Below the pieces are notes generated by a model. It was given only the letters and a program-made list of their open reading frames with translations, searched no databases and was not told the DNA's origin. Positions 52 through 51,103 of a stretch of DNA of 54,081 bases are shown here, piece by piece. The stretch lies in IMG/VR virus record IMGVR_UViG_3300025543_000036, positions 1-54,081 of that record. One strand, given 5' to 3'. A program made the translations under genes and the position numbers. Source of the DNA: a virus. Within the stretch, counting starts at the first letter, position 1, and each line of letters starts with the position of its first letter.

Positions 52-598
52 TCGGCCAGTAGCTAACCGCGCTATCGCACCTACAGGATCAATTGGTATT
101 CTTGCAGGGACAAGCACTGGCGTAGAGCCAATATTTGCTGTGGCTTACAAGCGTAGGTATTTAAAAGGTGGAACTAGGTGGCACTATCAGTATGTGGTAG
201 ACAGTGCGGCTCAAGAACTTATTAATATCTACGGTGCTAACCCAGACAAAATTGAATCTGCTCTTGATCTTGCTGACGACTATAAGCGTAGGATAAAGTT
301 CCAGGCTGACGTTCAAGACTATGTGGACATGTCTATTTCTTCTACAATTAACTTACCATCTTGGGGTAGTAAGACTAACAACGAAGATACTGTAGAAGAA
401 TTTACAAACACTCTCGCATCATATGCTCATAGATTAAGAGGCTTCACTGTATATCCTGACTCATGCCGTGGAGGACAACCTCTAACAAACGTACCTTACT
501 CTGAAGCTGTAGATAAACTAGGAGAGGAGTTTGAAGAGGGTGTAGAGGCACATGATATCTGCGACATTACAGGTCATGGGGGTAGTTGTGGGGTATAG
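2..598 (+). CDS. nrdJ: Class II ribonucleotide reductase, C-terminal part
   Basis: This is the 3' portion of the gene that begins at 52943. Read from position 2 it continues the same frame without a stop; the joined protein is about 561 residues. The segment holds the reductase barrel-end motif (APTGSIGILAGTSTGVEP) followed by FAVAYKRRYL, typical of adenosylcobalamin-dependent reductases. The C-terminus carries two cysteines (DICDITGHGGSCGV), expected to act as the redox relay that re-reduces the active site. It converts ribonucleotides to deoxyribonucleotides for phage DNA synthesis. The TAG stop (596-598) directly abuts the ATG of the next gene, so the two are probably co-translated. At about 560 residues it is shorter than most cellular class II enzymes, as is common for phage versions. 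Confidence 0.9.
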   Translation, partial: GISDSVSHKFSEELSISRPVANRAIAPTGSIGILAGTSTGVEPIFAVAYKRRYLKGGTRWHYQYVVDSAAQELINIYGANPDKIESALDLADDYKRRIKFQADVQDYVDMSISSTINLPSWGSKTNNEDTVEEFTNTLASYAHRLRGFTVYPDSCRGGQPLTNVPYSEAVDKLGEEFEEGVEAHDICDITGHGGSCGV

Positions 599-1165
599 AT
601 GTTAACTCACTATTGTTTCAAAGAAGTTCTCCCAAAAGAATTTTGTGACGGTTTTCTTAATGTTGCACGGGAACTAGATTCTAAAGAGGCAGAAGTTTTT
701 AAAGAAGGCGACGATGTAGTATTATCAGAGATAAGAAACAACAGAGTTGCATGGTTAGCTAATGACGAGTTGTCTGGGATACTAGAATTGTATGTAGACA
801 TAGCTAATGAAAAAGCTGGCTGGGATTTTAGTTTAACTTCTTTTGAAGTACCTCAAGTATCCTTTTATGGTAAGGGTCAGTTCTATGATTGGCATGTAGA
901 TACAGGAGTAGAAAAACAAAGTGATCCTTACTTCAGAAAGTTAGCTATCTCTATAACACTCAACGATGAGTTTAAAGGGGGTGACTTCCAGGTACAGAAT
1001 TTTGTTCACCCTCAAGCACCTAATAGATTTAAAACTGTAAAAGAAATGAGGAGACAAGGAAGTATTGTTGTCTTCCCTTCTTTTATTTTTCACAGAGTAA
1101 CTAAAGTGAAAGAGGGAGAAAGGTCTGCTATGACTTGTTGGTTTAGAGGTGAAAAATTCTCTTGA
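599..1165 (+). CDS. 2-oxoglutarate/Fe(II)-dependent dioxygenase
   Basis: A 188-residue protein with the double-stranded beta-helix signature of Fe(II)/2-oxoglutarate oxygenases: an HxD pair (His99, Asp101 in YDWHVD), a distal His165 (FIFHRV) and Arg175 (GERSAM) to bind 2-oxoglutarate. The family includes PiuC-like and prolyl-hydroxylase-like enzymes, and such genes are frequent in marine phages. The substrate cannot be read from sequence; peptide or nucleic-acid hydroxylation are both possible. ATG follows the reductase stop with no gap, so expression is presumably coupled. The gene's own stop overlaps the -35 box of a promoter for the next gene. Confidence 0.85.
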   Translation: MLTHYCFKEVLPKEFCDGFLNVARELDSKEAEVFKEGDDVVLSEIRNNRVAWLANDELSGILELYVDIANEKAGWDFSLTSFEVPQVSFYGKGQFYDWHVDTGVEKQSDPYFRKLAISITLNDEFKGGDFQVQNFVHPQAPNRFKTVKEMRRQGSIVVFPSFIFHRVTKVKEGERSAMTCWFRGEKFS

Positions 1166-1244: not shown

Positions 1245-1691
1245 ATGAATACAATATTACAAACTGAAAATGTTCAGAATTTATTAAAGAACTTTAGTCT
1301 TGGATTTGAAGATTACTCATCTTCACCAATGATATCCTTTCATAGAGATAATGCAACTACTTTTCCTTTCCACGATATTAATAAAGACGGAGAGGATGGT
1401 TATGTCTTAGAGATTGCTTTAGCTGGATATGCTAAAGAAGACATAACAGTAGAAGAGAGAGATGGTTTCTTAACTGTCGCCTCTAGTGATTTCTATAACA
1501 ATAAAGAAATAACAGAAGAAATTTCAGACGCTATTGTAGTAAGAAATATTTCAAAGAGAAAATTTAAAAGAACATTCTCTTTAAATCCTAACTATGTTGT
1601 AGCTGCCGCAGAGATGGTGGACGGGCTACTAAAAATTAGGTTGAAGATGAAAGCCGATGACCAACATAAAAAAGTAATTCCAATAGAATAG
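1245..1691 (+). CDS. hsp20: Small heat-shock protein (Hsp20, alpha-crystallin domain)
   Basis: A 148-residue IbpA-type holdase. Residues about 45-140 form the alpha-crystallin domain, recognisable from DGEDGYVLEIALAGY, KEDITVEERDGFLTV and the late strand ISKRKFKRTFSLN. A short variable N-terminal arm precedes it. sHsps bind unfolding proteins without ATP, and homologues are known in T4-like cyanophages. A good ribosome site (AGGAG, about 1236) lies upstream of the ATG. The gene has its own promoter-like sequences and a hairpin behind it, so it may be a separate transcription unit within the late plus arm. It could protect the host translation machinery or virion proteins during infection. Confidence 0.92.
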   Translation: MNTILQTENVQNLLKNFSLGFEDYSSSPMISFHRDNATTFPFHDINKDGEDGYVLEIALAGYAKEDITVEERDGFLTVASSDFYNNKEITEEISDAIVVRNISKRKFKRTFSLNPNYVVAAAEMVDGLLKIRLKMKADDQHKKVIPIE

Positions 1692-1736: not shown

Positions 1737-2498
1737 ATGTTAGATAAACCATACAAAATATATGTAGGGTATGACGAAAAAGAAAAGACTTACTTTGATG
1801 TTCTGTCCTACAGCATAAGAAAAAATACAAACCATCCCGTAGATATAATCCCACTAAAGCAGAACGCTCTACGAAGGGCGGGTCTTTACTTCAGAGGAAA
1901 AGAAATAAACGAGGACAATCAATTTGTAGATTGTTTTGATGGTAAACCTTTCTCAACTGAATTTAGTTTCACTAGATTTTTAGTTCCTTTCTTAAATCAA
2001 TTTGAAGGGTACGCCTTATTTATGGACTGTGATATGTTTGTTAATACAGACATATCTGAATTATTTAATGAGTATTGTAATCCTTCATTTGCGGTCAGTT
2101 GTGTGAAACATGACCATGTTACAGAAGGCGGTCTGAAGATGGATAACCGTGTTCAGTCTAACTATCAGAGGAAGAACTGGTCCAGTTTTGTTATGTGGAA
2201 CTGTGGGCATGAAGCACTAAAAGATTTTACTGTGCATGATGTAAGTACAAGGAATGGTTCTTGGTTACATAGGTTTGCTTTCCTTGAGAGGGAGTATGAG
2301 AATAATCTTATTGGGTCTATACCTCAAGAATGGAACTGGTTAGATGGACATTCTCCCGCTAACTTAAAACCTAAGTGTGTTCACTTTACTACAGGCGGTC
2401 CAATATACAGCAACTGGGATGGGCGAAGAACTATAGATAATAAACATGCTATGGAGTGGTCAACATTATATTCAGAAATGGTTAAAGTAAATGGTTAG
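1737..2498 (+). CDS. GT-A fold glycosyltransferase (GT8-like)
   Basis: A 253-residue protein. The N-terminus (YKIYVGYDEKE) starts a Rossmann-type nucleotide-sugar fold. Residues about 96-104 (YALFMDCDMFV) hold a DxD motif that binds metal and the sugar-nucleotide. Later segments (SSFVMWNC, PQEWNWLDG, VHFTTGGP) match GT8-like and marine-phage glycosyltransferases. It likely moves a sugar from an NDP-sugar to an unknown acceptor in the host cytoplasm. It overlaps the next gene by 8 bases. With the fusion protein downstream and the GDP-sugar genes at 48.9-51.1 kb it suggests a phage-encoded glycosylation programme. No strong Shine-Dalgarno is visible before the ATG. Confidence 0.82.
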   Translation: MLDKPYKIYVGYDEKEKTYFDVLSYSIRKNTNHPVDIIPLKQNALRRAGLYFRGKEINEDNQFVDCFDGKPFSTEFSFTRFLVPFLNQFEGYALFMDCDMFVNTDISELFNEYCNPSFAVSCVKHDHVTEGGLKMDNRVQSNYQRKNWSSFVMWNCGHEALKDFTVHDVSTRNGSWLHRFAFLEREYENNLIGSIPQEWNWLDGHSPANLKPKCVHFTTGGPIYSNWDGRRTIDNKHAMEWSTLYSEMVKVNG

Positions 2499-4785
2499 AT
2501 TTGTAACATCCTTTTCAGGTAAACACTACGACATATATGCAAAAAAAATGTTGGAGTCTGTCGTTGAACACTGGGCAGATAACTTAAAACTTATTGTTTA
2601 TTATGACACTGTAACTGAAGAACAGAAGAAAGACTTTCCTAAGTCACCTATTATTGAATACAGAGACTTAGATGAGGTTGAAGACAGAGCTATCTTCTTG
2701 GATAAGATGAAAGGCTATGACGGCACATCTAATGGTCAGATGCCTTATGACTTTCGCATGGATGCTCTACGCTTCTGTCACAAAGTATATGCTCTCACAG
2801 ACTACTTTCTTGAGATATCAGAGAACGAAGCCAAGGGTGGCTGGCTTATATGGATGGATGCAGATGTACTGACTACATCCCCTTTGTCTGAAGAAATTTT
2901 GTTCCAGGCTTTTCCTAAAGATTCAGAGTTAATACATTTAGGAAGAACAGACATTGATTTTAGTGAGACAGGATTTATTGGTTTTAATCTAGATACGATG
3001 CATAGCCATTACTTCTTAGCTGACATAAGAGGATGCTATGATATAGGCGAAGTGCTGGCCTACCGAGAGTGGACCGACGCTTTTATTATGACTAGGTTCA
3101 TTAAGATATATGCAGCGCATGGCATGAAGGTTCATAATTTAAGTGAGGGTGCGTCTGGTCTAGCTGTTTTCCCTCAATCTAAGTTAGCAGACTTTATGAT
3201 CCATTATAAAGGTAATTTAAAAAATACTATAGGCGAAGATATTGTTACTCCTGATGTAAACTTACCTCGTTATCATCAGTTAGCTGTTCTTATTAGAGAG
3301 TATAAACCTAAAAGAATTGTAGAGGTTGGAACTTGGAATGGTGGCAGAGCTATAGAGATGGCCTTGGCTGCTTTTGAAAATAGCAAACGAGTACACTATA
3401 CTGGCTTTGATTTATTTGAAGATGCAACATTTGAGATAGACCGTAAGGAACAAAACACTAAGCCTCATAATAATTTTGATGCAGTAAAGAAACGTCTTGA
3501 AGACTTTGCTGGTAAGATGAAAGAAGATAAGAAGACGTTCACCTTTACTTTATTAAAAGGTGATTCAAAAGAAACCATGCCGAAAGCAAAGAAAGAGTTA
3601 AAGAAAGCTGACTTTGCTTTTATAGATGGTGGTCATAGTGAAGAAACTATTTTATCTGATTATGAAAATTTAATACATGTTCCTGTAGTAGTCTTAGATG
3701 ATTACTATAGTAAGGATATAGACGATAAAATTCCTGGTGATGATTTTCTAGGAACTAACCGTCTTGTAGAATCAATGGAGAAGACAAGGATATTTGTCTT
3801 GCCTTCTCAAGATAGAGTGAAGGATGGCGGTACTGTTCACTTGGCTGTTAGGTTAAAAACAGATGACCTTCCTAACCTACCTAAAGAATTAAGTAGAACA
3901 CCTATTATAATTCAACCTAAAGATTGCGTTCCTAAAGACGATATACTGGACAATATAAACGATAACGTAGAGTTAATAAAAGATTGGGACTTTGTTCAAA
4001 ACTGTGATGTTAATAATGAACATGTAATTGTAGCATCCGCTGGTCCTTCTATGGACTTTGAAGAATTAAAAGCTGTTCAGAAAAAATACGATGCTAAAGT
4101 AGTGTGTGTAAAACATAGTTATCCTTTACTCTTGGAGGCTGGTATTCAACCTTGGGCATGTGTTATACTTGACCCTCGCCCGATAACTGGAACTAGTACA
4201 CACGGTGTTGTGCGAACAGAGTTGTTTAAGGAGATTGACCCAGTTACTAAGTTCTTTATTGCGTCTATGACTGATCCTAGTGTTACTAAGTTCATACTGG
4301 ATAAGACAAAGAATGTATACGGGTGGCATGCTTTCTCTCAAGCTGTTGCTGATATAGTAAGTGGTAAGATTGAGATAGACTATAATTTAAAAATAGACAA
4401 AGAAAACGCTACGTTTGTTAGCGGTGGTACATGTGCGGCAATGCGATCAATTGGCATGATGCACATATTTGGATTTAGGAACTTCCATCTGTTTGGTTTT
4501 GATTGTTCAATAGAAGGTCTTTCTGATGAACAGAAAAAAGAAAAGCTAGATGATGGTGTAAGACCTAAATATATGCCAGTAGAAATAAGCGACTGTCATT
4601 TCTGGACTACTGGCGAACTTCTTGCAATGGCACAAGATTGTGAGAAGTTGTTTGATAATCCTCAAGTTGAAATGATGGTCAATTTTTATGGAGAGAATAC
4701 ATTAGTATCTGAGGTTTACAAACTTTCTAAGAAAAGTAATCCAACACACTACACTAAATATATAGAAGACAAACAGACAACCTAA
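2491..4785 (+). CDS. Three-domain fusion: glycosyltransferase, SAM methyltransferase, DUF115/MptE-like
   Basis: A 764-residue protein with three visible parts. Residues 1-245 resemble a GT-A glycosyltransferase with a DxD motif (WMDADVL, 121-127). Residues about 260-460 look like a class I SAM-dependent methyltransferase: motif I VEVGTWNGG (277-285), then a TGFDLFED strand and an AFIDGGHSEE segment (376-385), as in the Methyltransf_24 type. Residues about 510-720 resemble DUF115/MptE-like Rossmann domains found in flagellin (Maf/PseE) glycosyltransferases: VIVASAGPS (512-520), VILDPRP and FHLFGFDCS. The protein could add and methylate a glycan. Substrates are unknown. It overlaps the preceding glycosyltransferase gene, implying joint expression. 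Each domain call rests on motifs; the fusion itself is directly seen as one uninterrupted frame. Confidence 0.75.
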   Translation: MVRFVTSFSGKHYDIYAKKMLESVVEHWADNLKLIVYYDTVTEEQKKDFPKSPIIEYRDLDEVEDRAIFLDKMKGYDGTSNGQMPYDFRMDALRFCHKVYALTDYFLEISENEAKGGWLIWMDADVLTTSPLSEEILFQAFPKDSELIHLGRTDIDFSETGFIGFNLDTMHSHYFLADIRGCYDIGEVLAYREWTDAFIMTRFIKIYAAHGMKVHNLSEGASGLAVFPQSKLADFMIHYKGNLKNTIGEDIVTPDVNLPRYHQLAVLIREYKPKRIVEVGTWNGGRAIEMALAAFENSKRVHYTGFDLFEDATFEIDRKEQNTKPHNNFDAVKKRLEDFAGKMKEDKKTFTFTLLKGDSKETMPKAKKELKKADFAFIDGGHSEETILSDYENLIHVPVVVLDDYYSKDIDDKIPGDDFLGTNRLVESMEKTRIFVLPSQDRVKDGGTVHLAVRLKTDDLPNLPKELSRTPIIIQPKDCVPKDDILDNINDNVELIKDWDFVQNCDVNNEHVIVASAGPSMDFEELKAVQKKYDAKVVCVKHSYPLLLEAGIQPWACVILDPRPITGTSTHGVVRTELFKEIDPVTKFFIASMTDPSVTKFILDKTKNVYGWHAFSQAVADIVSGKIEIDYNLKIDKENATFVSGGTCAAMRSIGMMHIFGFRNFHLFGFDCSIEGLSDEQKKEKLDDGVRPKYMPVEISDCHFWTTGELLAMAQDCEKLFDNPQVEMMVNFYGENTLVSEVYKLSKKSNPTHYTKYIEDKQTT

Positions 4786-5324: not shown

Positions 5325-5858
5325 ATGGCTGAATTAAAGATAAGACAGGAGAAGTTCTGTCAAGCATATGTCCTCTATCGCAACGCAACGGAGTCAGCCA
5401 AGATAGCTGGCTACTCTGAAGGTTCTGCACATACGCAGGGTCATAGACTTATGCAGCGAGGAGACATTAAAGAAAGAATAGAAGAATTAGAGAAAGAAGT
5501 AGAGACACGCATTGATGTTGTCTCTGAAATAGAAAACCAATATACCTACGCAAAGAACAACGGACACACAAACAGCGCTATCAAAGCACTAGAGGTGTTG
5601 TCTCGCATACGTTCTGCTAAAGAAGATGAAGCACCTAAAAATGTAGCTGAAATAGAAAACGAGATAATTAAGTATCTTGAAGTTCTAGGTGAGAAAGAAA
5701 CATCAAAACTTTTTTTAAAATGTGATTTCTTTGCTGATGAAGAACAAGAAGAAGACCTTGATGAGGTAGAACATCTAAAAGAAAAGATAGAATCTATACC
5801 TAAAAGGAATGTTAGGAAAGAATACCTGGAATCCAGGGAAGGACATGTGCTAAAATAG
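5325..5858 (+). CDS. terS: Terminase small subunit
   Basis: A 177-residue protein. The N-terminal 60 residues (LKIRQEKFCQAYVLYRNATE, AKIAGYSEGSAHTQGHRLMQ) match the helix-turn-helix DNA-recognition part of the Terminase_2 family. A helical oligomerisation region follows, then an acidic segment (about 145-155) and a charged tail. It recognises phage DNA and delivers it to the large subunit. Unusually it lies at the end of the plus-strand arm behind the lysis genes, about 27 kb from the large subunit gene (32702-34297, minus strand). On the circular map it is the last gene of the plus arm. Confidence 0.85.
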   Translation: MAELKIRQEKFCQAYVLYRNATESAKIAGYSEGSAHTQGHRLMQRGDIKERIEELEKEVETRIDVVSEIENQYTYAKNNGHTNSAIKALEVLSRIRSAKEDEAPKNVAEIENEIIKYLEVLGEKETSKLFLKCDFFADEEQEEDLDEVEHLKEKIESIPKRNVRKEYLESREGHVLK

Positions 5859-16257: not shown

Positions 16258-17478
16258 TTATGGGGTATACTCTGTTATTTTAACTGATGACATTGGTATT
16301 GTAAGACCATAAACAGGTGTAGAGCTTCCACCTTGATTTCCGTTAACAAAACATGAAGCATTATTAGAACTGCCTATATGCACTCTGAAGCTTTTTTGAG
16401 ATGTAGTTCCTGCTGTTACTTTAGCTTGTGCTATTAATCGAGAAAGTGATCCAGAACCAGCCTCAAAAGCAAGATTACCACCTATTGCAGATGATAAAGA
16501 TGCATCAAATATAAGTATTCCCCTATTAATATTATCAGCAGCAACTTCAGCTACAAGATTTGCTTCAATAAGTAAAATATTACTTGCAGATTGAGGTGTA
16601 ATAGTAATATCTAAAGCACTGACTCTATTACCTTCTGATATTTGAGGAACTGTACCATCTTCAGGAATAGCACCATTTGCACCTACAGAAGTAACCGAAG
16701 AAAAGTTAACTGCTGTAACTTGAGCTACTAAACCACTTGCCCATACAGGATTAGCACTTGAACCTTTAGTTTGTAAGAACTGACCGCTTGTACCTGCAGG
16801 AAGTCTTGCAATACTGCTTCCAGAATAATAATAAACATCTCCTTGAGCATCACTTCCAAAACTAAGTTGATTACCTAAACCATCAAATGCAGAAGCAGAT
16901 ACTGTACCTGAAAATCTACCTGATACAGCCGATACTGATGTAGCATGTATTGCTGTAGCTGATACTTGTGTAGCTGTCATAATGCTAGTAGATATTTTAG
17001 TAGCATTAAGAACACTAGTAGATACTGATGTAGCAGTAAGACTATTAGCGGTAAAAGAACTTACTGATGTTGGAAACGCAGTTTGAAATACATTAGTGCC
17101 ATCAGTAGCCACCATAACATTAGAACCTTGTTCTATTGTAATAGCTGTATTACCTGCAGTTTTAACTTTAAGAGCGTGTGATCCAGATGTATTGTTTCTT
17201 ACATAATACATCTTATTAACAGAAGGAATAATAATAGAAGTTTCTGCAGTAAGTGTACCATCAAAAGACAAGATAGCTTTACGTGATTGATCTGTAGCAC
17301 CATTAACTTGAGTTAGTGTTAAAGGTGTTGTCCCACTAACAGAAACTATTTGATATGCTGCAACAGCCTGATCAACTAGATCAATAACATTCGAGTTGAG
17401 TATTGTTCCCCAAGAGTTGGGATTTTCTCCATCTCCTTGTTTCTCTAGTCTAATGTTTGTTGTAAATGTACTCGCCAT
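16258..17478 (-). CDS. Tail fibre protein
   Basis: A 406-residue protein. The N-terminal 110 residues (TNIRLEKQGDGENPNSWGTI, LNSNVIDLVDQAV) match the attachment part of marine phage tail fibres. Residues about 140-200 are a Ser/Thr/Val/Ala repeat (TATSVSTSVLNATKIS and similar), likely a triple-helix stem. A cap-like unit ARLPAGTSGQFLQTKG precedes a beta-rich C-terminal domain (about 260-406) that resembles receptor-binding jelly-roll ends. The ATG lies 2 bases past the stop of the 17480-17860 gene. It probably recognises the host surface. Confidence 0.8.
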   Translation of the reverse strand: MASTFTTNIRLEKQGDGENPNSWGTILNSNVIDLVDQAVAAYQIVSVSGTTPLTLTQVNGATDQSRKAILSFDGTLTAETSIIIPSVNKMYYVRNNTSGSHALKVKTAGNTAITIEQGSNVMVATDGTNVFQTAFPTSVSSFTANSLTATSVSTSVLNATKISTSIMTATQVSATAIHATSVSAVSGRFSGTVSASAFDGLGNQLSFGSDAQGDVYYYSGSSIARLPAGTSGQFLQTKGSSANPVWASGLVAQVTAVNFSSVTSVGANGAIPEDGTVPQISEGNRVSALDITITPQSASNILLIEANLVAEVAADNINRGILIFDASLSSAIGGNLAFEAGSGSLSRLIAQAKVTAGTTSQKSFRVHIGSSNNASCFVNGNQGGSSTPVYGLTIPMSSVKITEYTP

Positions 17479-17479
17479 T

Positions 17480-17860
17480 TTAAACTCCTAAGTGTGCTGC
17501 AGTCATAAACAAGATATATCCTGTCTCTTCTAAACTTGTTTTAATTTTATAAACTATTGCTTCTTTTCCATAAGTAAATTTAAATGTATGTATATCTTCA
17601 ATAACTAATCCTATTAATTCTTCAGAATGTTGAAAACATCTTTCTGATTTAGATAAACTAAAAAACATAAGGTCTGCTTTTTCTCTTGATACTTCTAATG
17701 CTTGACCAACTCTTAATATTGCATCCTCATCTATACAATAACTTCTATACATTAAAAAATCTTCAGGTATAGGATTTTGTAAATGTCCTGCTTTTACAGG
17801 AGGAGACAAAAGGAAAACCTGTAAATAAAATATTGTAAAAACTATAATGTATTTTAACAT
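17480..17860 (-). CDS. Exported protein of unknown function
   Basis: A 126-residue protein with a clear N-terminal signal sequence (KYIIVFTIFYLQVFLLSP, then a likely signal-peptidase site near PPVKAG at residues 20-25). Two cysteines (in YRSYCIDE and SERCFQHS) could pair in the periplasm. It lies between the tail fibre and other tail genes, which is an unusual position for a secreted protein. It could alter the host surface, but the function is not recognisable. Confidence 0.65.
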   Translation of the reverse strand: MLKYIIVFTIFYLQVFLLSPPVKAGHLQNPIPEDFLMYRSYCIDEDAILRVGQALEVSREKADLMFFSLSKSERCFQHSEELIGLVIEDIHTFKFTYGKEAIVYKIKTSLEETGYILFMTAAHLGV

Positions 17861-17894
17861 TAATTTAAAAACCTTAAAAGATAACTATTAAATT

Positions 17895-18233
17895 TTAATC
17901 TTCCCGTTCAGCCCATGATGTAGAAGATTCATCCCAATAATATTTTCTGTCTCCTGCAACACCAGGATATTCTACAGGTGCTTGCCATATACATTTATCA
18001 TCTAAGACCCAACTTGGATACGGTTGTGGTCCGTAAAAAGCATCTTTTACAGGATCGTAAGTAAAACCAATACCAGCAAAATTATATCTTATATTATTAT
18101 TATAACTTGTTTGTTTCCACGTACCACCCCAAAAATCTTTACACCAATTCTCACCATCAGCTTCATATTCGTCATTTACTACGCATACTCTTAATACAAT
18201 ATTATTTTCATCTAATTCCGCAAAATGTGCCAT
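17895..18233 (-). CDS. Conserved tail-fibre-region protein (MAHFAELDENN type)
   Basis: A 112-residue protein of a kind I recognise from many cyanophage and pelagiphage tail regions: an N-terminal MAHFAELDENNIVLRVCVV, a central GGTWKQTSYN and GIGFTYDP, and PYPSWVLDDKCIWQAPVEYP. The biochemical role is unknown; it is usually encoded beside tail fibres and may be a small fibre-tip or assembly protein. It sits 10 bases after the glycine-rich adhesin gene. Confidence 0.75.
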   Translation of the reverse strand: MAHFAELDENNIVLRVCVVNDEYEADGENWCKDFWGGTWKQTSYNNNIRYNFAGIGFTYDPVKDAFYGPQPYPSWVLDDKCIWQAPVEYPGVAGDRKYYWDESSTSWAERED

Positions 18234-18243
18234 CTTATTATTC

Positions 18244-19092
18244 CTATTGGAATTGATATCTAATTATTACCACGCCACTGCCACCACCGTTAGTGCCAGT
18301 CGCGTTGTTGTGACCTGTTCCGCCACCGCCACTGCCTGTATTTACGCTGCCGGGCGTTGCTGCAATTCCACCCTCGCCTCCAGTTCCGCCGCCGCCGCTT
18401 CCACCGGCACCCCTGCCTCCGACTTCTGTAGTGCCGCCGCCACCACCTCCCGCTCTGGTGACCGATGATCCGGTTATGCTGGAGGCAGTACCAGAGCCGC
18501 CTGGACCGCCTGGAGTTGTACTGGTATTTCCATTACCACCAGCACTACCACTACCGCCTCCTCCTCCGGCTGTGCCGTTATTATCAGAGCTTATTCCACC
18601 ATTATTGCCTTGACCAGATGTCCCGGTGCCGGCGCTACCAGAACCAAGGCCGGCAGCACCGCCACCCGACCCTCCATTACCTCCGTTAGCAGCACCATCT
18701 GCACCACCACCACCTCCTCCCGTTGAGGTTATCGATGAAAATACCGAATTAGAACCGCTCGCGCCTTGCGTACTACCACTCGATGATGCCGCACCACCAG
18801 CACCAACAGTAATGCTATACGCTTGTTGGGATACACTAAAATTAGTTGCTGTTCGATAGCCTCCCGCACCACCTCCACCACCGTAGAAATCTGAACCTCC
18901 TGCAGCACCTCCTGCAATAACTAGATACTGGACTACACCATCAGCCCCTAATTGTGTAATAGTAAATGTTCCACTAGAGTTAAAAGTATGTACTTTAAAG
19001 TTGCCGTCCGTTGTTATTGTTCCACCAGTAGCCACAGTAAATGCAGCGCCTGAAGAAGAAATACCACCCTGGACTATAGGAAGTAGTGACAT
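18244..19092 (-). CDS. Glycine-rich tail adhesin
   Basis: A 282-residue protein. A short N-terminal beta domain (residues 1-75, GGTITTDGNFKVHTFNSSG, VQYLVIAGGAAGGS) is followed by about 190 residues dominated by Gly, Ser, Ala, Thr and Asn, with many GGGGG runs, ending GGGSGVVIIRYQFQ. This is the glycine-rich adhesin architecture, comparable in principle to T-even gp38 polyglycine motifs, where variable loops determine receptor choice. The DNA at about 18270-18720 is visibly GC-rich against AT-rich neighbours, suggesting recent acquisition or selection on glycine codons. The start is an ATG adjacent to the stop of the upstream fibre gene. Confidence 0.8.
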   Translation of the reverse strand: MSLLPIVQGGISSSGAAFTVATGGTITTDGNFKVHTFNSSGTFTITQLGADGVVQYLVIAGGAAGGSDFYGGGGGAGGYRTATNFSVSQQAYSITVGAGGAASSSGSTQGASGSNSVFSSITSTGGGGGGADGAANGGNGGSGGGAAGLGSGSAGTGTSGQGNNGGISSDNNGTAGGGGGSGSAGGNGNTSTTPGGPGGSGTASSITGSSVTRAGGGGGGTTEVGGRGAGGSGGGGTGGEGGIAATPGSVNTGSGGGGTGHNNATGTNGGGSGVVIIRYQFQ

Positions 19093-20580
19093 TTATTGTA
19101 GTGCTTTCACAGTCAGTAAGGAGAATGTAGTAGAACCATCATTTATTCTTGTAATATAGAAGAAAAACTCATGTCCATTTGTAGTTGTTAAGTCATCTCC
19201 ATCTTTAACAGTATATGCGGAAGTAGTTAGTGTTCCTGCACTTGCATTATTCTTGTATAATATAACCATAGTACAATTTTTAGTAGGAACAGCTAATGTA
19301 TGTGCGCCTCCGTTAGTTGCAAACTGAAAATTGCCATCATCAACGTCAGGAGTAAATGTCCCACTAGATTTAGTACCTGCACTATGAGCAGCCGCACTGA
19401 ATCCTGCAGTTAACTCATCAGCTTCGTCTGCTTTTAAAATATCTGCATTAAAAGCCTCAACATCACTTCCTATTGCTACTCCAAGATTTGTTCTAGCTGT
19501 ACTAGCACTATTTAAGTCTGAAAGATTACTTGCTTTTAATAGAGCAGCAGAGTTAATAGATGTTATAGCTGCTTTATTAACACTAGTTAAAACACTTACA
19601 GCAGCAATATTAGTATTGCTATTTCCAATACTTGTAGCTAAAGCTGAAGAAGTATTAGCTATCCTTGCTAAGTTAACACTAGTTAATACACTAACTGCAG
19701 CAATATTAGTATTACTATTACCTATGCTTGTAGCTAAAGCTGAAGAAGTGTTTGCAACTCTCGTATTAACTGAAGTAATAGCTGCAGCATTAACACTTGT
19801 TAACGCACTAACAGCAGCTAGAGCAGAAGCACTAGGAACTGCAGCACCGCCTATAAATACATTAGTAGATGCAAATAAATTAGCTGCAGAAACATTACCA
19901 CTAAACTCTGCTGCAGTACCACTAACTTTTCCTGTAAAAGATGCTCCACTTACAACAGTAAGCTGATTAGTTGTAAAGGCCGCAACTGATGTAGCTGCAG
20001 ATGCTTCAACACCTGTTAAGTTTGATCCATCACCAAAATAAGATGCTGCAGTTACATTACCACTGAATGTAGCAGCAACACCAGAAAATGTAGAAGCAGA
20101 CACTGCTCCTGTCATAGCTAATGTTGTACCACTTACTTTCCCTGTAAATATACCTGCTGCACCAGCAAATGTTCCTGCTGATACTATACCGCTAAACTCT
20201 GCGGCTGTCCCACTAACTTTACCTGTAAATGCTGCACCACTTACTACAGTAAGTTGATTAGCAGTAAATGATGTTACTGATGTAGGAATAGATGCTTGAA
20301 CACCTGTTAGATTAGAACCGTCACCAAAATAAGTTGATGCACATACAGCAGTTATGAGAGTAGCAGAGTCACCCGTTATTTTTCCTGATGCACTAAGAGC
20401 AGCACCAACTGTTAATTTTCCTGTTGTCTCAACTTCAGAGTTACTTATTTTTAAAGCAGAGTTTGTCCCTTCACCATCTGAAACAAACCGTACAGTTGAA
20501 TCAACTCCGTCATTACTATTACTTACTTGAAGTAAATCTTTATAAGTATTTGATATAAGTTTGCCGGTAAGTGTTGCCAT
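19093..20580 (-). CDS. Tail fibre protein with internal repeats
   Basis: A 495-residue protein beginning MATLTGKLISNTYKDLLQVS, a typical marine phage fibre start. The stem holds repeated modules: YFGDGSNLTGV twice, NQLTVVSGAAFTGKVSGTAA-like units twice or more, and a roughly 33-residue NTSSALATSIGNSNTNIAAV unit repeated (about 99-bp DNA period near 19577-19780). The C-terminal domain (about 385-495) is beta-rich with TNGGAHTLAVPTKNCTMVIL. The ATG at 20580 shares TAATG with the upstream stop; a start 15 bases earlier inside the previous gene is possible but less likely. Confidence 0.8.
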   Translation of the reverse strand: MATLTGKLISNTYKDLLQVSNSNDGVDSTVRFVSDGEGTNSALKISNSEVETTGKLTVGAALSASGKITGDSATLITAVCASTYFGDGSNLTGVQASIPTSVTSFTANQLTVVSGAAFTGKVSGTAAEFSGIVSAGTFAGAAGIFTGKVSGTTLAMTGAVSASTFSGVAATFSGNVTAASYFGDGSNLTGVEASAATSVAAFTTNQLTVVSGASFTGKVSGTAAEFSGNVSAANLFASTNVFIGGAAVPSASALAAVSALTSVNAAAITSVNTRVANTSSALATSIGNSNTNIAAVSVLTSVNLARIANTSSALATSIGNSNTNIAAVSVLTSVNKAAITSINSAALLKASNLSDLNSASTARTNLGVAIGSDVEAFNADILKADEADELTAGFSAAAHSAGTKSSGTFTPDVDDGNFQFATNGGAHTLAVPTKNCTMVILYKNNASAGTLTTSAYTVKDGDDLTTTNGHEFFFYITRINDGSTTFSLLTVKALQ

Positions 20581-20858
20581 TATATTAGATTCCAAAATTT
20601 ATCTGTGTCTTCCCATTTAGTATTGGCGTTTTGCCATTCAAGATTCCTATCTGAGTTAGACGGTGGACGGGGATTGCGAATATTTGTATCATCTCTTACA
20701 TCAGGTACTTTATTCTGCGGATGGTTCTTTAGATCATATGCTCCATCAAAGTCAGTAGGACAAACAAGTAAACCATAACTGTTAAGTTTCATTACCCTAT
20801 GTGGGTAGACAAAACCACACATATCGCATACAGCTTTGGCATTCTTATTACTCGCCAT
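20580..20858 (-). CDS. Small Cys-containing tail-region protein
   Basis: A 92-residue protein. VCDMCGFVYP near the N-terminus and LLVCPTDFDG form a C-x2-C...C pattern that may bind zinc. The remainder is polar with PPSNSDRNLEWQNANTKWED. Similar short proteins precede fibre genes in other marine podoviruses. It shares TAATG with the following fibre gene and starts 3 bases after the adaptor-like gene. Confidence 0.7.
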   Translation of the reverse strand: MASNKNAKAVCDMCGFVYPHRVMKLNSYGLLVCPTDFDGAYDLKNHPQNKVPDVRDDTNIRNPRPPSNSDRNLEWQNANTKWEDTDKFWNLI

Positions 20859-24607: not shown

Positions 24608-25264
24608 TTAATTAGTATTAGCTACTAGATTGTCATCTGCGCCAGCAGGACTTGCAGGACTTTGCATATCATCCCTACGTGTTCTACGTGCTTGATTGCG
24701 CTGTAATTCTAGAAGCTGTGAGTATCGCTGTTCAAATAACTGTGAAGTAGGATAGTCTTTTTGAAAGACCATAGCCTCTATCATAGAAGCATTAAAAAGA
24801 AGGTCATAACAAAAATCAGTATAATAGTTTTCGGGAGTTGCAGATGTTAATGTTACTGGGCGACTAACATGTACAACTTGTCCACCATAAGTAGAAGCAG
24901 GAGTAGGCGCAATCAAAACTGTAGTATTATTACGAGGAGCGTAATATCTTGGCTCATCAGTTGATGCGCTTACAGGCCAGTAGTCATTAATATATTCATC
25001 TGTTCTTTGTAACAGATTAATTTTTGTAGAGTTACTTACAATATTAATATTCTTAACTACTCTTGTTCCTGTAGGTAAAGTAAGGATATTATTTCCAGAA
25101 GAAACAGCAATAGAAGTATAAGATACTAGACCATAGTCATCTAAGTCTTTTGTTAAACGCTCTTCAGCACGATTAACCATCTTAGGAATATAGTTAATAA
25201 ACTCTGTTCCTTCATTCTCAGACGCCTGAATAATATCATTTACTAAATAAGTATAATCAACCAT
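24608..25264 (-). CDS. Second adaptor-like protein (P22 gp4 / T7 gp11-like)
   Basis: A 218-residue protein: YLVNDIIQASENEGTEFINY, VNRAEERLTKDLDDYGLVSY, a beta region with ILTLPTGTRVVKNINIVSNS, then NTTVLIAPTPASTYGGQVVH and a helical end RYSQLLELQRNQARRTRR. This matches the head-completion or tail tubular A-like class. It lies immediately after the capsid region and overlaps the upstream gene by 8 bases. With 20861-21535 it makes two adaptor-type proteins in one virion. Confidence 0.72.
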   Translation of the reverse strand: MVDYTYLVNDIIQASENEGTEFINYIPKMVNRAEERLTKDLDDYGLVSYTSIAVSSGNNILTLPTGTRVVKNINIVSNSTKINLLQRTDEYINDYWPVSASTDEPRYYAPRNNTTVLIAPTPASTYGGQVVHVSRPVTLTSATPENYYTDFCYDLLFNASMIEAMVFQKDYPTSQLFEQRYSQLLELQRNQARRTRRDDMQSPASPAGADDNLVANTN

Positions 25265-25562
25265 AGAACACTGCTATTGTTGCTGCTGAAGTTGGAGCAG
25301 AAACCACAACTGTTCCTTTCATTGCAACACCTAAATCAGAGAAGTAAACTTCATTTGCATCACATGCTGTAGTATTTACAAATCTAATATTATTTCCTTT
25401 AACTGTGCCTCGCGCATCAGTAGAAGTTCCAGTAATAAGAAACTGACCAACGCCTGTAGCAAATACGGAACGGATACGAGTATCTGCAAGAGAGACACTA
25501 GTTACAGTATCAAGAACCGCCCCACTTCCAGTTACAAATCCCTGTCGAATAGTAGTTGCCAT
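25257..25562 (-). CDS. Small beta-rich virion protein
   Basis: A 101-residue protein, rich in Thr, Val, Ala and Gly (TTIRQGFVTGSGAVLDTVTS, ARGTVKGNNIRFVNTTACDA). Its composition suggests a beta-sandwich, as in decoration or tail proteins. It is the first gene after the capsid terminator. An AAGGAAC sequence lies just upstream of the ATG. No family is assigned. Confidence 0.65.
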   Translation of the reverse strand: MATTIRQGFVTGSGAVLDTVTSVSLADTRIRSVFATGVGQFLITGTSTDARGTVKGNNIRFVNTTACDANEVYFSDLGVAMKGTVVVSAPTSAATIAVFYG

Positions 25563-25600
25563 GTTTTGTTCCTTTATATAAATAGAATTTAATTATTTGT

Positions 25601-25628
25601 ATTATATAACAAGACCAGTAATTACAAA
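25601..25628 (-). promoter_or_regulatory. Putative promoter after the capsid terminator
   Basis: On the minus strand TTTGTA (25628-25623), a 16-base spacer, and TATAAT (25606-25601), about 40 bases before the ATG at 25562. It overlaps the T-rich tail of the capsid terminator and would restart transcription of the tail genes. The -10 matches consensus, the -35 only partly. Confidence 0.4.
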
Positions 25629-25673
25629 AGCAAAGGGTGAAGAAAAAGAAGCTTGTATCTTTCTCTCCACCCT
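25622..25673 (-). terminator. Rho-independent terminator after the major capsid gene
   Basis: On the minus strand, AGGGTG plus a purine-rich arm pairs with a pyrimidine-rich arm plus CACCCT (outer stem 25634-25639 with 25668-25673, inner A/G to T/C pairing), followed by TTGCTTTTG. It lies about 40 bases past the capsid stop. Terminators directly after capsid genes are common in podoviruses and set high capsid output. Confidence 0.7.
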
Positions 25674-25712
25674 CACCTAACTTAGTCTATATTAACCTAG
25701 TTTACGCTGCTC

Positions 25713-26657
25713 TTAGGACGAACCAGAAGCACCATAATAGCTACGCCAATCAGAGAAGCCGAAGCTGTAACGCTCACGCGCTTTAAACCTAAGATTGCCT
25801 GTATCGAAATCAGGTTCCATCTTAGTTTGAAGAGGCGCACGAACAAACATTTTAGCTCCATTCGGGCAATCAGTACGCAGATACCAAGCATTTCCATCTT
25901 GGAACCTACGGTTTACATAAAAGCCACCAGGAACTAGACCCTGATTACGGATGCTGTTAATATCATTAACATTCGTTGCACCGTTACCAGCAGTCGTTGG
26001 GTTAACACCAATTGTCGTTGACATTGTGCTATTCAAGATTTGGTCTGCCGTAAAGGCAAGGTCCGAAGGCACATGAAGTGACTCAACCTGTAGACCAACA
26101 AGAATACCACGATCATCTTCTGCTTTTGAGATGGTAATCAAAGCCGACTCAAGAGATGCTTCCGAAAGATCAGTAGCACCAAGAGTGTTGGATTGAGTAC
26201 CGCCACCAACTACTGGATGACTAGCACTGAAGAAAGGCTGTCCGTCCCCACCAGGACTTGTCGCCGCAAAGCCGTTGTTGAAAACATCAGCAGCTTTAAC
26301 TTGCTTAGTGTTAGCCATTGCACGGGCAAGACCACGCGCACGTAGTTTAGCAAAAGTGTCATAAAGATTATCTTCCATAGCTTCTTCAGTTACTGCAAAA
26401 GCAAGAGCTATAGTCTCGTGACTGTAACGAGAAGCATAGCCTTCTTGTGCATCATCAAACTGAACAGCAGCGCCTTCACTTTTAACAGGTGCTGTGCCAA
26501 AGCCGGTGAATAGAACTTCTTCCTCAAACGCACGATCTGATTGTTCAATATCAAAGAGTGAAGCATGTTCATTGTCCACATCATTGTATTCAATACCAAA
26601 TACAGCGTTTAATCCTGGGAGCAGTTCTTTCGCAATACTAGAGCGATTAATAGCCAT
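25713..26657 (-). CDS. Major capsid protein
   Basis: A 314-residue protein of the HK97-fold type, resembling Mu gpT-like head subunits: LLPGLNAVFGIEYNDVDNEH, ETIALAFAVTEEAMEDNLYD, RARGLARAMANTKQVKAADV, PFFSASHPVVGG and a C-terminal GNLRFKARERYSFGFSDWRS. It forms the icosahedral shell. Codons in the gene look slightly GC-richer than its neighbours, as expected for a highly expressed gene. It follows a smaller head protein gene and is followed by a strong terminator. A scaffold gene lies upstream. Confidence 0.88.
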   Translation of the reverse strand: MAINRSSIAKELLPGLNAVFGIEYNDVDNEHASLFDIEQSDRAFEEEVLFTGFGTAPVKSEGAAVQFDDAQEGYASRYSHETIALAFAVTEEAMEDNLYDTFAKLRARGLARAMANTKQVKAADVFNNGFAATSPGGDGQPFFSASHPVVGGGTQSNTLGATDLSEASLESALITISKAEDDRGILVGLQVESLHVPSDLAFTADQILNSTMSTTIGVNPTTAGNGATNVNDINSIRNQGLVPGGFYVNRRFQDGNAWYLRTDCPNGAKMFVRAPLQTKMEPDFDTGNLRFKARERYSFGFSDWRSYYGASGSS

Positions 26658-26675
26658 TTTTTATTACTCCCTTCC

Positions 26676-27263
26676 TTAGTTAGCCGATGAGTCAGCGGAG
26701 ATGTAAGCATCTACGTGACGCACGATACGAACTTCCAGTTTTGGAAAAGCACGATCTGCAGCAACACTAATATCATTTCCTGGCTCATCTAATACAGAGA
26801 TAGCACGAAGCATACCACCTGTAGTGTCCGTGCGAGAAGCAGCGGCAATTCCGAAGCCTGAACGACCAGTTACTGTAGAACCTGCACCTATTGTACAACT
26901 AAAGTTCTTCGACATAATATCACCAGCAGTGACAGAAGCATCAGCTTGAACTACAAAGGTAGCTTGTGGGTCATCAACAACGAATGCAACCGCATCGTCA
27001 GAAGATGTACCACTAGGCCAGTAGTTAGAATACTTAATTTCACCGTTAGCAGTATATTGACAACCCTGAAAAACACCTATAGCTTTTTGGGTTGAAACGC
27101 TTAAAACGACCACATTTCCTGCAACATTACAAACAATATCGCCACTGAAGATGTTGGTTCCGAAACCACTTGCAATGGGATATTCATTCGTAGCAGTGCT
27201 GTTCGAGGCACCACCACGTTTGCGAGAAGGACTAAGGCCGTTTAGTGCTTTTGTATCACTCAT
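26676..27263 (-). CDS. Capsid-associated protein (putative decoration or minor head protein)
   Basis: A 195-residue protein rich in beta-forming residues: YPIASGFGTNIFSGDIVCNV, QKAIGVFQGCQYTANGEIKY, PQATFVVQADASVTAGDIMS. Such proteins occur directly before the capsid gene in marine podoviruses. The function is inferred from position; a head decoration or minor capsid role is likely. Confidence 0.7.
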   Translation of the reverse strand: MSDTKALNGLSPSRKRGGASNSTATNEYPIASGFGTNIFSGDIVCNVAGNVVVLSVSTQKAIGVFQGCQYTANGEIKYSNYWPSGTSSDDAVAFVVDDPQATFVVQADASVTAGDIMSKNFSCTIGAGSTVTGRSGFGIAAASRTDTTGGMLRAISVLDEPGNDISVAADRAFPKLEVRIVRHVDAYISADSSAN

Positions 27264-42284: not shown

Positions 42285-42467
42285 ATGGATCAGAAATCAA
42301 CTATAAAACTTTTGAAAGATCAAATATCCCAGATGACTTCTGCAACTTACTCCCACTATAAAAGAATAGCAGAGTTAGCAGAAGAAAATGATTACTTGAG
42401 AAAAAGAGTAAACTACTTAGAAAACAAATTAGAACAGGTATCAAATAGGAAACTCAATGAAAGCTGA
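42285..42467 (+). CDS. Small coiled-coil protein
   Basis: A 60-residue protein, nearly all coiled coil (LLKDQISQMTSATYSHYKRI, AEENDYLRKRVNYLENKLEQ). It overlaps the thyX start by 11 bases. No family is recognised. Confidence 0.6.
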   Translation: MDQKSTIKLLKDQISQMTSATYSHYKRIAELAEENDYLRKRVNYLENKLEQVSNRKLNES

Positions 42468-43209
42468 ACTTATAGCTAGTTTAGGTGATGATCTTACAGT
42501 TGTTAATGTTGCCCGTGTTTCTTTCGACAAGGAATCGGATTGGAAAAAGAATGTAAAATCACCGCCAGCAGATAAAGAACTTTATGATAAAGATATAAAG
42601 TTAATTAAATACTTAGCCAAGCATAATCACTTTACTCCCTTCACTCATTGCTCAATAACTTTGAGAGAAACTGTGCCTATCTTTGTAGCAAGACAAAGAT
42701 TTAAACACACGATAGGTTTTACTTACAACGAAGTAAGTAGAAGATATGTAGATGATGATCCTGAGTTTTACTCTCCTGAGATATGGAGATTTAGGGCAGA
42801 CAATATCAAGCAAGGTTCTGATAAAGAAGGTGTTTTAGATGAACGGTTAGATAGAAAGATTTGGTTTGTTGATGGGGTTTCTCGCGCCATAGATCAAACT
42901 ACAAGCACTCCAAAAGAAATATACTCTGCATGTATTAAGACATATGATGCATTGTTAGCATTAAATATCTGTCCAGAACAAGCAAGAATGGTTTTGCCAC
43001 AAGCAATGTACACAAGTTATTATGTTACAGGTTCATTAGCTGCATTCGCCAGGGCATATAATTTACGAAGTGAGGATTCGGCGCAAGAAGAAATCAAAGA
43101 GTTATCCACAGAGTGGGATAAAATAATAGGTAAGTTATTTCCTGAGAGTTGGAAAGCATTAACAAATAATAATAGTAATAATAATAAAGATGAAGAGGTA
43201 ATTCATTAA
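42457..43209 (+). CDS. thyX: Flavin-dependent thymidylate synthase
   Basis: A 250-residue protein that makes dTMP from dUMP with methylene-tetrahydrofolate, FAD and NADPH. KHNHFTPFTHCSITLRETVP and ARQRFKHTIGFTYNEVSRRY define the FAD/dUMP site, and the C-terminal PEQARMVLPQAMYTSYYVTG with Arg-x-x-x-x-Pro-Gln is conserved. The classical RHR-x7-S signature is altered here (KHTIGFTYNEVS, one residue longer), as I recall for other marine phage ThyX proteins. The last residues are low-complexity Asn. It joins the next small gene through TAATG and acts with the phage reductase to supply DNA precursors. Confidence 0.9.
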   Translation: MKAELIASLGDDLTVVNVARVSFDKESDWKKNVKSPPADKELYDKDIKLIKYLAKHNHFTPFTHCSITLRETVPIFVARQRFKHTIGFTYNEVSRRYVDDDPEFYSPEIWRFRADNIKQGSDKEGVLDERLDRKIWFVDGVSRAIDQTTSTPKEIYSACIKTYDALLALNICPEQARMVLPQAMYTSYYVTGSLAAFARAYNLRSEDSAQEEIKELSTEWDKIIGKLFPESWKALTNNNSNNNKDEEVIH

Positions 43210-48852: not shown

Positions 48853-49932
48853 ATGTCAAAACATGCTTTAATTACAGGACTTACTGGACAAGATGGTTCT
48901 TATTTAGCTGAATTACTCCTATCAAAAAACTATCACGTTCATGGTTTGGTCAGGCGTAGCTCAACACCTAACACAAAAAATATAGAACATATTATAGACA
49001 ACCCTAACATCTCCATACATGTAGGAGACATGACTGATAGCGCTGGTTTAACTAAGATAGTAAACAACATCAAGCCTGATGAAGTTTATAACCTAGCTGC
49101 ACAAAGCCATGTTAAAATATCTTTTGATACACCTGTATGTACGGGAGACATAAACGCTCTTGGTTCAATGCGTTTGCTTGAGGCATGTAGGAATATAAAA
49201 GATTGTCCTCAACCAAAGTTTTATCAAGCTTCATCCAGCGAGTTGTTTGGAAAGATACAGGAGCCAATTCAAAATGAAACAACTCCAATGTATCCTCGCT
49301 CACCCTATGGCGTAGCAAAACACTATGCCTACTGGGCAGTAAAGAATTATCGAGAAGCCTATAACATGTTTGCTTGTAATGGCATCCTGTTCAACCATGA
49401 AAGTCCTAGACGAGGAGAAGAGTTTGTCACTAGAAAAGTAACTAAGTATGTGGCTAACTGGCATCCAAATTCTAAGCCACTTGAGTTAGGAAATCTTTCT
49501 AGTCTGCGAGATTGGGGACATGCCAAAGATTATGTTAAGGGCATGTGGCTTATGCTGCAAGCGTCAGAGGCTGATGACTATGTGTTAGCTACAGGTAAGA
49601 AGAACAGTGTACGCGAACTGGTAGAAAGTTGTTTCTTGATAGCCTGTAACAGGACTATTGTCTGGGAAGGGGAAGGACTTGACGAGAAGGGATATGTTTT
49701 CTTCACTGACGTATACGACAAACCTCAAAAAAATTTAGTGGTTGTAGTTAATCCTGATTTTTATAGGCCGTCTGAAGTAGATGTTCTATGTGGAGATTCC
49801 ACCAAGGCTAAGACAAAATTAAAATGGACATGTGATTATAATTTTATATCTCTAATAAAAGAGATGCTACTAGCAGATAAACCAGAGAAATATTGGTTTA
49901 CAAACGGAGGTGAATTACCTGATGGTTACTGA
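48853..49932 (+). CDS. gmd: GDP-mannose 4,6-dehydratase
   Basis: A 359-residue short-chain dehydrogenase. The NADP site is ITGLTGQDGSYLAE (residues 7-20), followed by VRRSST. NLAAQSHVKISFDTP and YQASSSELFGK are diagnostic for GDP-mannose dehydratases; catalytic Tyr152 and Lys156 lie in SPYGVAKHYA, with NHESPRRGEEFVTRK binding substrate. It converts GDP-D-mannose to GDP-4-keto-6-deoxy-D-mannose, the branch point for fucose, perosamine, rhamnose and colitose. The stop overlaps the next gene. Part of residues 250-320 is longer than usual (GLDEKGYVFFTDVYDKPQKN). Confidence 0.93.
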   Translation: MSKHALITGLTGQDGSYLAELLLSKNYHVHGLVRRSSTPNTKNIEHIIDNPNISIHVGDMTDSAGLTKIVNNIKPDEVYNLAAQSHVKISFDTPVCTGDINALGSMRLLEACRNIKDCPQPKFYQASSSELFGKIQEPIQNETTPMYPRSPYGVAKHYAYWAVKNYREAYNMFACNGILFNHESPRRGEEFVTRKVTKYVANWHPNSKPLELGNLSSLRDWGHAKDYVKGMWLMLQASEADDYVLATGKKNSVRELVESCFLIACNRTIVWEGEGLDEKGYVFFTDVYDKPQKNLVVVVNPDFYRPSEVDVLCGDSTKAKTKLKWTCDYNFISLIKEMLLADKPEKYWFTNGGELPDGY

Positions 49933-51103
49933 AATTAACTGGCCTTTAGCCCATGACACTTGGGATAATAAAGAACGAGATGCAATGCATGAAGTTATTG
50001 CTTCTGGTAGATTTACTTTCGGAGAAAAAGTAAAAAAGTTTGAGGATGAATTTTGTGAGTACTTTGGATTTCCTTACGCTGTTCAAGTTAACAGTGGTGG
50101 TAGCGCTAACCTTTTAATGGTGGCGGCTGCTGTCGAAAGAGGATGGATATCCAAGGGAGATAAAGTTATTGTACCTGCTGTTGGCTGGAGTACATCTTAC
50201 TTCCCATTTATTCAGTACGGCATTGATTTAGTTTTCGTAGATGTTGATGAAGATACTTGGAATATTAATGTAGATCAAATTGAAGACAACATAAAGGATG
50301 ATGTGCGAGGTATTCTAGCTATCAATATTTTAGGTAATCCTTGTGACTTTAAAACACTTAACTCTCTATGTGATAAATATGATTTACTATTATTTGAAGA
50401 CAACTGTGAGTCTATGGGTGCAAAACAAGGAGACACTTACTGTGGTGGGTTTGGTGATATAGGTACGTTCAGTACGTTCTTCAGTCATCACATACAAACT
50501 ATGGAAGGTGGTATGGTTGTCTGTAATGATCCTGAGACATATAACAAGCTACTAAGTCTTAGGTCACATGGGTGGACAAGAGGTACAAAGTACTACACAA
50601 ACAATCCCTTTGAGTTTGTCACTCTAGGATACAACGTGCGGCCAGGAGAATTGAACGGCGCTTTAGGTTCTGTCCAGCTAAATAAATTAGATGACATGAA
50701 CAATCAAAGAATTAAAAACGCAGATACATTTATAAAATATTTTGATAACAAAGACTACTGCAGGATTCAAAAGGTGGGGGATAATAGTCTTTCCTCATGG
50801 TTTGGTTTTGGTCTTGTCTTTGATCGTAACTCGTTCAGGCAAAGAACAAAACAAATTCTCGAAGAGTATTCTATTGATAACAGACCTATATGTACTGGTA
50901 ATTTTTTCAATCAGCCTGTATGTAAGAAGTATTATAAGAACATTGAGAGAGGAGCAGCACTGGTTGAAGCACGTAAACTTGATGACAATGGTTTGTTCTT
51001 AGGAAACAACCCTATGGATTTAGAACCAGCTATAAAAAGCCTTAGTAAAATTTTAGACTATGAATTTAGTGAGAAAAATATTTTAAATTCAGGATCATAT
51101 TGA
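49922..51103 (+). CDS. colD: ColD-type GDP-4-keto-6-deoxymannose 3-dehydratase
   Basis: A 393-residue PLP enzyme of the DegT/DnrJ/EryC1 superfamily. The usual Schiff-base lysine is replaced by histidine in TFFSHHIQTMEGGM (His189, possibly with His190), as in E. coli ColD and other 3-dehydratases. Further matches: WPLAHDTWDNKE, VNSGGSANLLM, VPAVGWSTSYFP, FEDNCESMGA, LRSHGWTRG, GYNVRPGELNGALG, SSWFGF, RPICTGNF. ColD removes the C3 hydroxyl of GDP-4-keto-6-deoxymannose on the way to GDP-colitose. Paired with gmd, whose product is its substrate. The final reductase/epimerase ColC is not in the window. The ATG at 49922 has GGAGG upstream and overlaps the gmd end by 11 bases. Confidence 0.85.
   Translation: MVTEINWPLAHDTWDNKERDAMHEVIASGRFTFGEKVKKFEDEFCEYFGFPYAVQVNSGGSANLLMVAAAVERGWISKGDKVIVPAVGWSTSYFPFIQYGIDLVFVDVDEDTWNINVDQIEDNIKDDVRGILAINILGNPCDFKTLNSLCDKYDLLLFEDNCESMGAKQGDTYCGGFGDIGTFSTFFSHHIQTMEGGMVVCNDPETYNKLLSLRSHGWTRGTKYYTNNPFEFVTLGYNVRPGELNGALGSVQLNKLDDMNNQRIKNADTFIKYFDNKDYCRIQKVGDNSLSSWFGFGLVFDRNSFRQRTKQILEEYSIDNRPICTGNFFNQPVCKKYYKNIERGAALVEARKLDDNGLFLGNNPMDLEPAIKSLSKILDYEFSEKNILNSGSY

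Follow-up and report, generated by a model that had tools for sequence, protein, structure and literature searches.

The locus and its predicted domains

The stretch of DNA analysed here, which we call the window, is the IMG/VR virus record IMGVR_UViG_3300025543_000036 at its full length of 54,081 bases, and it contains a gene for a GT8-like glycosyltransferase directly followed by a gene that fuses a predicted glycosyltransferase, a predicted methyltransferase and a DUF115 domain in one frame (Table 1). The two genes overlap by 8 bases, and short gene overlaps of this kind are a usual sign of translational coupling. Judged by its sequence, the phage is an uncultured, marine, T7-like short-tailed phage, with a T7-like gene set of primase/helicase, DNA polymerase, portal, DNA-ejection-type proteins, an Rz-like spanin and the terminase subunits. 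Because the frame for the large subunit of ribonucleotide reductase (RNR) leaves the right end of the window and resumes at its left end, and because the same gene is single and uninterrupted in a relative (L002), the map is probably circular, with the RNR gene as the probable point at which a circular, or circularly permuted, genome was opened in this record. The fusion gene lies in the region running from RNR through lysis to the terminase small subunit gene (terS), on the strand opposite to the capsid genes and not among them; the genes for head, decoration and tail-fibre proteins are found at 16258-20595 and 24608-27263. A 106.9 kb record of the same phage type, IMGVR_UViG_3300025168_000039 (the source of L005), is about twice as long as the window and matches Gmd and ColD only once each, and it is possibly a joined assembly.

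Table 1. Features of the window that bear on the fusion gene and its surroundings
Feature	Coordinates	Strand	Remarks
RNR large subunit	52943-54081 and 140-598		frame split by the window ends
2OG-Fe(II) oxygenase (P4H-like)	599..1165	+	PF13640, E=1e-15; frequent but optional neighbour, 60/69 loci, some truncated
Hsp20 small heat-shock protein	1245..1691	+	PF00011, E=3e-11; optional neighbour, 49/69 loci
GT8-like glycosyltransferase, 253 aa, GT-A type	1737..2498	+	invariant MDCDM motif; precedes and overlaps the fusion gene
Glycosyltransferase-methyltransferase-DUF115 fusion protein, 764 aa	2491..4785	+	ATG start
Domain 1, GT-A-type glycosyltransferase, residues 1-245	2491..3225	+	WMDAD motif, residues 121-125
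Domain 2, class I SAM methyltransferase (Methyltransf_24/TylF-like), about residues 246-440	3226..3810	+	motif I VEVGTWNGG; FIDGGH
Domain 3, DUF115/MptE-like putative glycosyltransferase, about residues 441-764	3811..4782	+	SAGPS, LDPR, SGGTCAAMR and LFGFDC motifs
Terminase small subunit	5325..5858	+	PF03592, E=2e-14; constant downstream marker, 46/46
Thymidylate synthase family gene	42457-43209		
GDP-mannose 4,6-dehydratase (Gmd)	48853..49932	+	PF16363, E=2e-130
ColD-type GDP-4-keto-6-deoxymannose 3-dehydratase	49910..51103	+	top PDB hits ColD, E=5e-95

Two of the three domains of the fusion are recognized by Pfam above the respective cut-offs. Residues 485-674 match the MptE-like family PF01973 (Maf_flag10) with E=4.5e-15 (56.3 bits against a cut-off of 34.6; E=8e-16 when the domain 3 segment is searched alone), residues 277-396 match Methyltransf_24 (PF13578) with E=2.3e-10 (41.7 bits against 26.3; E=2.3e-11 for the domain 2 segment alone), and both families are found in all 22 aligned orthologues. 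The Pfam matches of domain 1 in the window protein are all sub-threshold (13.8 bits for GT2 against a cut-off of 23.3), and its fold is supported through its family, in which 14 of the 23 alignment members match Glycos_transf_2 (best 5e-6), and through its DxD motif: D123-A-D125 is invariant in alignment A1, the DxD is conserved in both A1 and A4, and W-MDAD-V is conserved in the family. Across the orthologue alignment, little or no variation is seen in the glycosyltransferase DxD, in methyltransferase motif I (invariant E278, G280 and G284-G285) or in the DUF115 motifs. AlphaFold models of the fusion, built from a shallow alignment, have a mean pLDDT of about 55, with parts of the DUF115 core near 90; with this weak model Foldseek returned the Maf glycosyltransferase 5mu5 as its top match (E=1e-8), together with many class I methyltransferases and the MptE/HPPK structure 8sd5 of M. 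jannaschii (TM normalised by target 0.62). Overall, the three folds are supported, most weakly for domain 1, and the original prediction that a single 764-residue frame joins them is upheld; the sugar-transfer role that it proposed for the fusion is likewise supported. Searched against PDB sequences, neither the fusion nor its GT8-like partner, nor a profile of either, gave a credible match. The maximum hydropathy over 19 residues is 1.02, with no transmembrane-like stretch, and the fusion protein is therefore expected to be cytoplasmic.

The GT8-like protein matches Glyco_transf_8 of Pfam below threshold (E=0.0018; 18.3 bits against 24.3) and the unnamed family phrog_28018 with E=4e-49, and its D97-C-D99 motif is invariant in the alignment of the partner. 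Homologues at 35-41% identity occur in Caulobacter, Pelagibacter and Synechococcus phages, some of them annotated as glycosyltransferases. Its AlphaFold model (pLDDT 54; Foldseek E>0.6) is too poor to use. That this gene and domain 1 might be recent duplicates of one another was considered and rejected, since their profiles agree in nothing beyond the DxD motif.

Conservation and modularity of the fusion

A DUF115-profile scan of viral contigs yielded 394 related stretches, the top 80 being carried forward, and 69 distinct fusion-type genes were read in viral contigs. The second glycosyltransferase that had been noted beside the fusion proved to be a near-constant companion, with a GT8-like gene adjoining 68 of these 69 genes, mostly with a short overlap, and terS follows within 1.5 kb downstream in all 46 loci whose contigs extend far enough to be counted. 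The possibility that a frameshift or an assembly error had joined separate genes, raised when the fusion was first noticed, is rejected by the number of distinct genes, by their occurrence in many independent contigs and by the constancy of both neighbours. The architecture is retained down to about 52-60% identity, and dN/dS ranges from 0.03 to 0.12 per domain for all three domains taken separately (one DUF115 comparison with saturated dS was left out), so that each of them is under purifying selection. In two of the many loci, L121 and L127, the copy of the fusion is interrupted.

The methyltransferase is the dispensable part of this architecture. In L114, L116-L120 and L124 the gene encodes a glycosyltransferase-DUF115 form of 562-564 residues, in which a short linker replaces the methyltransferase and the two remaining domains are about 59-60% identical to those of the window. 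An essential role for the methyltransferase was rejected on this ground, and the records at hand for these phages, which are partial, showed no Methyltransf_24 gene elsewhere. In a maximum-likelihood tree of DUF115, whose outgroup branches are very long, these shorter forms fall in one clade (99/100) among the three-domain forms, and a single loss of the methyltransferase would be the simplest reading of that tree. In L125, whose contig bears phage genes and was assigned to a Sneathiella bin, the methyltransferase and DUF115 domains are 50% identical to those of the window and the glycosyltransferase domain only 33%; here the N-terminal domain has diverged more than the rest.

Sugar supply, acceptors and the function of the pair

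The original prediction placed the fusion together with Gmd and ColD in one complete system for building, methylating and attaching an unusual sugar, and this part of it does not hold. The window gene downstream of Gmd is, by its sequence, a genuine ColD: it shares the catalytic region SHH..TMEGG with ColD, and the catalytic His is conserved. An obligate link to the fusion was nevertheless rejected, since of the 28 fusion-bearing virus records, which are often fragments, 10 have Gmd and 6 have a gene of the DegT/ColD family. Two long fusion-bearing records, G012 (50.7 kb) and G016 (41 kb), contain neither gene, and in L023, L025-L027, L029, L032 and L034 there is no ColD between Gmd and the Cas4-type gene. 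Of the colitose pathway (Gmd-ColD-ColC), the window encodes the first two steps and not the third; it has no ColC-type reductase, and because its only Epimerase-family match is Gmd itself, the last step is missing. A phage with this gene content would be left with GDP-4-keto-3,6-dideoxymannose unless the host completes the pathway. Known DUF115 transferases of the Maf type use CMP-nonulosonates and not GDP sugars, and the CMP-sugar synthetase family PF02348 was found in none of the 28 fusion-bearing virus records and NeuB (PF03102) in none of 32 virus records, many of them fragments. As no donor-sugar genes travel with the fusion, the activated sugar probably comes from the host, and it may not be the same in every member.

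A clue to the acceptor comes from relatives of the third domain. By hhalign the DUF115 domain of the fusion is close to stand-alone phage and bacterial DUF115 proteins of 250-300 residues (Prob 99, E=4e-19), and in other T7-like phages these lie within the capsid module, in the order major head protein phrog_9953, mostly a decoration-like phrog_29386, DUF115, and connectors phrog_20268 and phrog_6013. The head gene is seen in 11 of 12 viral loci, the twelfth contig starting too late to show it, and these 12 loci include several near-copies and represent about six lineages. In L217, a GT8-like gene (26%, 4e-22) lies shortly upstream of the head gene. Because these relatives lie among capsid genes, virion proteins are suggested as acceptors, by guilt by association. 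Longer and tandem forms also occur. L205:3957-6762 (and also L206) carries tandem DUF115 genes of 682 and 264 aa directly behind those for the head and decoration proteins, and the larger protein has no Pfam match over its first 460 residues. L204:591-2297, adjoining phage connector genes, encodes a 568-aa protein with DUF115 in its C-terminal half only and an unassigned N-terminal half. The DUF115-bearing contig C88 of alphaproteobacterial genome G102 (L195) matches viral contig IMGVR_UViG_3300020214_000229 (L199) and is equal to it in length (15,827), which suggests that a phage contig was placed in this MAG by binning.

Taken together, we give about an even chance (roughly 0.5) to the reading in which the GT8-like protein and the fusion are a cytoplasmic, co-expressed pair that glycosylates virion proteins, a reading favoured because of the 68/69 pairing, the intact motifs, the low dN/dS, the Maf fold match and the capsid linkage of relatives. 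While particles are being assembled, capsid, decoration or tail fibre proteins would receive from the pair a short glycan that is often O-methylated. If DUF115 works as it does in Maf, it would start the glycan by moving an activated sugar of host origin, perhaps from a CMP-nonulosonate or Kdo-like donor, onto a Ser/Thr residue. Extension would then fall to the two GT-A domains, and capping or tailoring to the methyltransferase, the methyl cap being optional. What the pair acts on, which donor it uses, in what order the sugars are added, which group is methylated and what the phage gains are all points that we infer. Against this reading stand the placement of the window fusion away from the capsid genes, a marginal similarity to true Maf, the weak AlphaFold models, the lack of donor-sugar genes alongside, the fact that no acceptor was found, and the lack of a cultured-phage match for the methyltransferase and DUF115 domains.

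The pair might instead act during infection on glycans of the host envelope, either the LPS O-antigen or the capsule, and so mask receptors or exclude superinfecting phages, as serotype-converting or sugar-remodelling phage enzymes do. This we consider unlikely, and it is kept chiefly by the cluster in Pelagibacter phage Mosig, where separate GT1 and GT8-like genes, two methyltransferase genes and one for a putative sulfotransferase resemble a polysaccharide locus. It also draws on Gmd and ColD, O-antigen sugar enzymes present in some members, and on the frequent presence of TylF/MT24-type methyltransferases in glycan loci. However, the pair is kept in long records that have neither Gmd nor ColD, DUF115 relatives adjoin head genes in other phages, and a general look through the scanned genes brought up no membrane-bound transferase for initiation and no flippase or polymerase; a lytic podovirus would presumably also gain less from receptor masking.

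Virus-encoded DNA glycosyltransferases are known, and the 2OG-Fe(II) oxygenase that neighbours most fusion loci could, together with the thymidylate-synthase-type gene (Table 1), make an acceptor base for glycosylation of hypermodified phage DNA. Yet the oxygenase falls into PF13640, a family of prolyl-hydroxylase-like enzymes, and is missing in some fusion loci (e.g., L112, L113, L126), a base hydroxymethylase signature was absent among the genes scanned, and DUF115 proteins are not known to act as DNA glycosyltransferases, so that DNA modification is less likely than virion-protein glycosylation and is in fact quite improbable. At least as improbable is the idea that DUF115 acts here as an MptE-like pyrophosphokinase or another small-molecule enzyme, the fusion making a modified metabolite and not a glycoconjugate. 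The Pfam name and the fold-level match to HPPK would fit such an activity, but the best fold match is a Maf glycosyltransferase, the weak NCBIfam matches are to PseD and, for one relative, to the WaaZ Kdo transferase, and the domain shares its chain with a GT-A domain and its locus with a GT8-like gene.

Only a few cases of virion glycosylation have been documented among tailed phages. Returning to virion-protein glycosylation, its broader formulation, a phage-specific protein O-glycosylation relay of two GT-A domains and a Maf-like DUF115 domain with an optional methyltransferase cap, which would put a methylated glycan onto virion proteins and be widespread in uncultured aquatic podoviruses, is put forward tentatively and at somewhat short of even odds. 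If a Maf-like DUF115 does decorate phage particles, a common unannotated family (the 394 related viral-contig stretches of one scan) would gain a function, and the natural clade without the methyltransferase offers a ready comparison for the role of that domain.

Comparison with known glycan-modification enzymes

The Maf/PseD proteins, which are flagellin nonulosonate O-glycosyltransferases such as 5mu5 of Magnetospirillum and CbMaf of Clostridium botulinum, share with the fusion the central PF01973 domain and a predicted cytoplasmic nature. The relatedness to flagellin-modifying enzymes that DUF115 had first suggested is thus upheld by PF01973 and by the Foldseek match to 5mu5. In contrast to Maf, the fusion lacks the full Maf architecture, is joined to a GT-A domain and a methyltransferase, and occurs in a phage without flagellin. 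The NCBIfam model of full-length Maf (NF050051, PseD) gives 17.8 bits against 670 and covers only residues 508-610 of the window protein, with weak E values of 1e-3 for the window and 4e-7 for L116, and since this full-length model failed, the fusion is not classed as Maf. A direct hhalign comparison of its DUF115 domain with alphaproteobacterial Maf was marginal (Prob 17.6, E=0.0014).

The closest DUF115 relatives by profile are the stand-alone genes in podovirus capsid modules (L184/L209, L202, L205, L211, L215, L217), which differ from the fusion in lacking the GT-A and methyltransferase domains and in their position just after a head gene, the L204/L205 forms being longer. Near-full-length similarity is found in A0A6J7X5Q0 of an uncultured Caudovirales phage (BFVD/UniProt; 714 aa, 28% identity, Foldseek E=1e-39), which carries automatic annotation only and has no described function, and MptE-like proteins of 540-700 aa are also present in other uncultured phages. 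No described function for the three-domain architecture was found in the papers searched, as the original prediction had supposed, and similar architectures are represented by automatic UniProt entries only; a search for literature on DUF115 in phages turned up nothing relevant.

Among cultured phages, the pelagiphage Mosig EXVC030M has the GT1 and GT8-like relatives adjacent to each other, as separate genes, just after two methyltransferase genes, in a cluster near RNR to which the putative sulfotransferase also belongs (L162:7653-12610, Mosig 125709-130666); queries with the methyltransferase and DUF115 domains against the cultured phages collection, Mosig included, gave no match. In the mycobacteriophages Che8 and Rita, which infect actinobacterial hosts, phage-encoded glycosyltransferases glycosylate virion proteins, and glycans are carried on the capsid proteins (Freeman et al. 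2023, cited in PMC11256854), a precedent for glycosylation of phage capsids; no such fusion is mentioned in what was read of PMC11256854. Overall, the fusion and its GT8-like partner belong with the known phage enzymes of glycan modification, as a variant of that kind.
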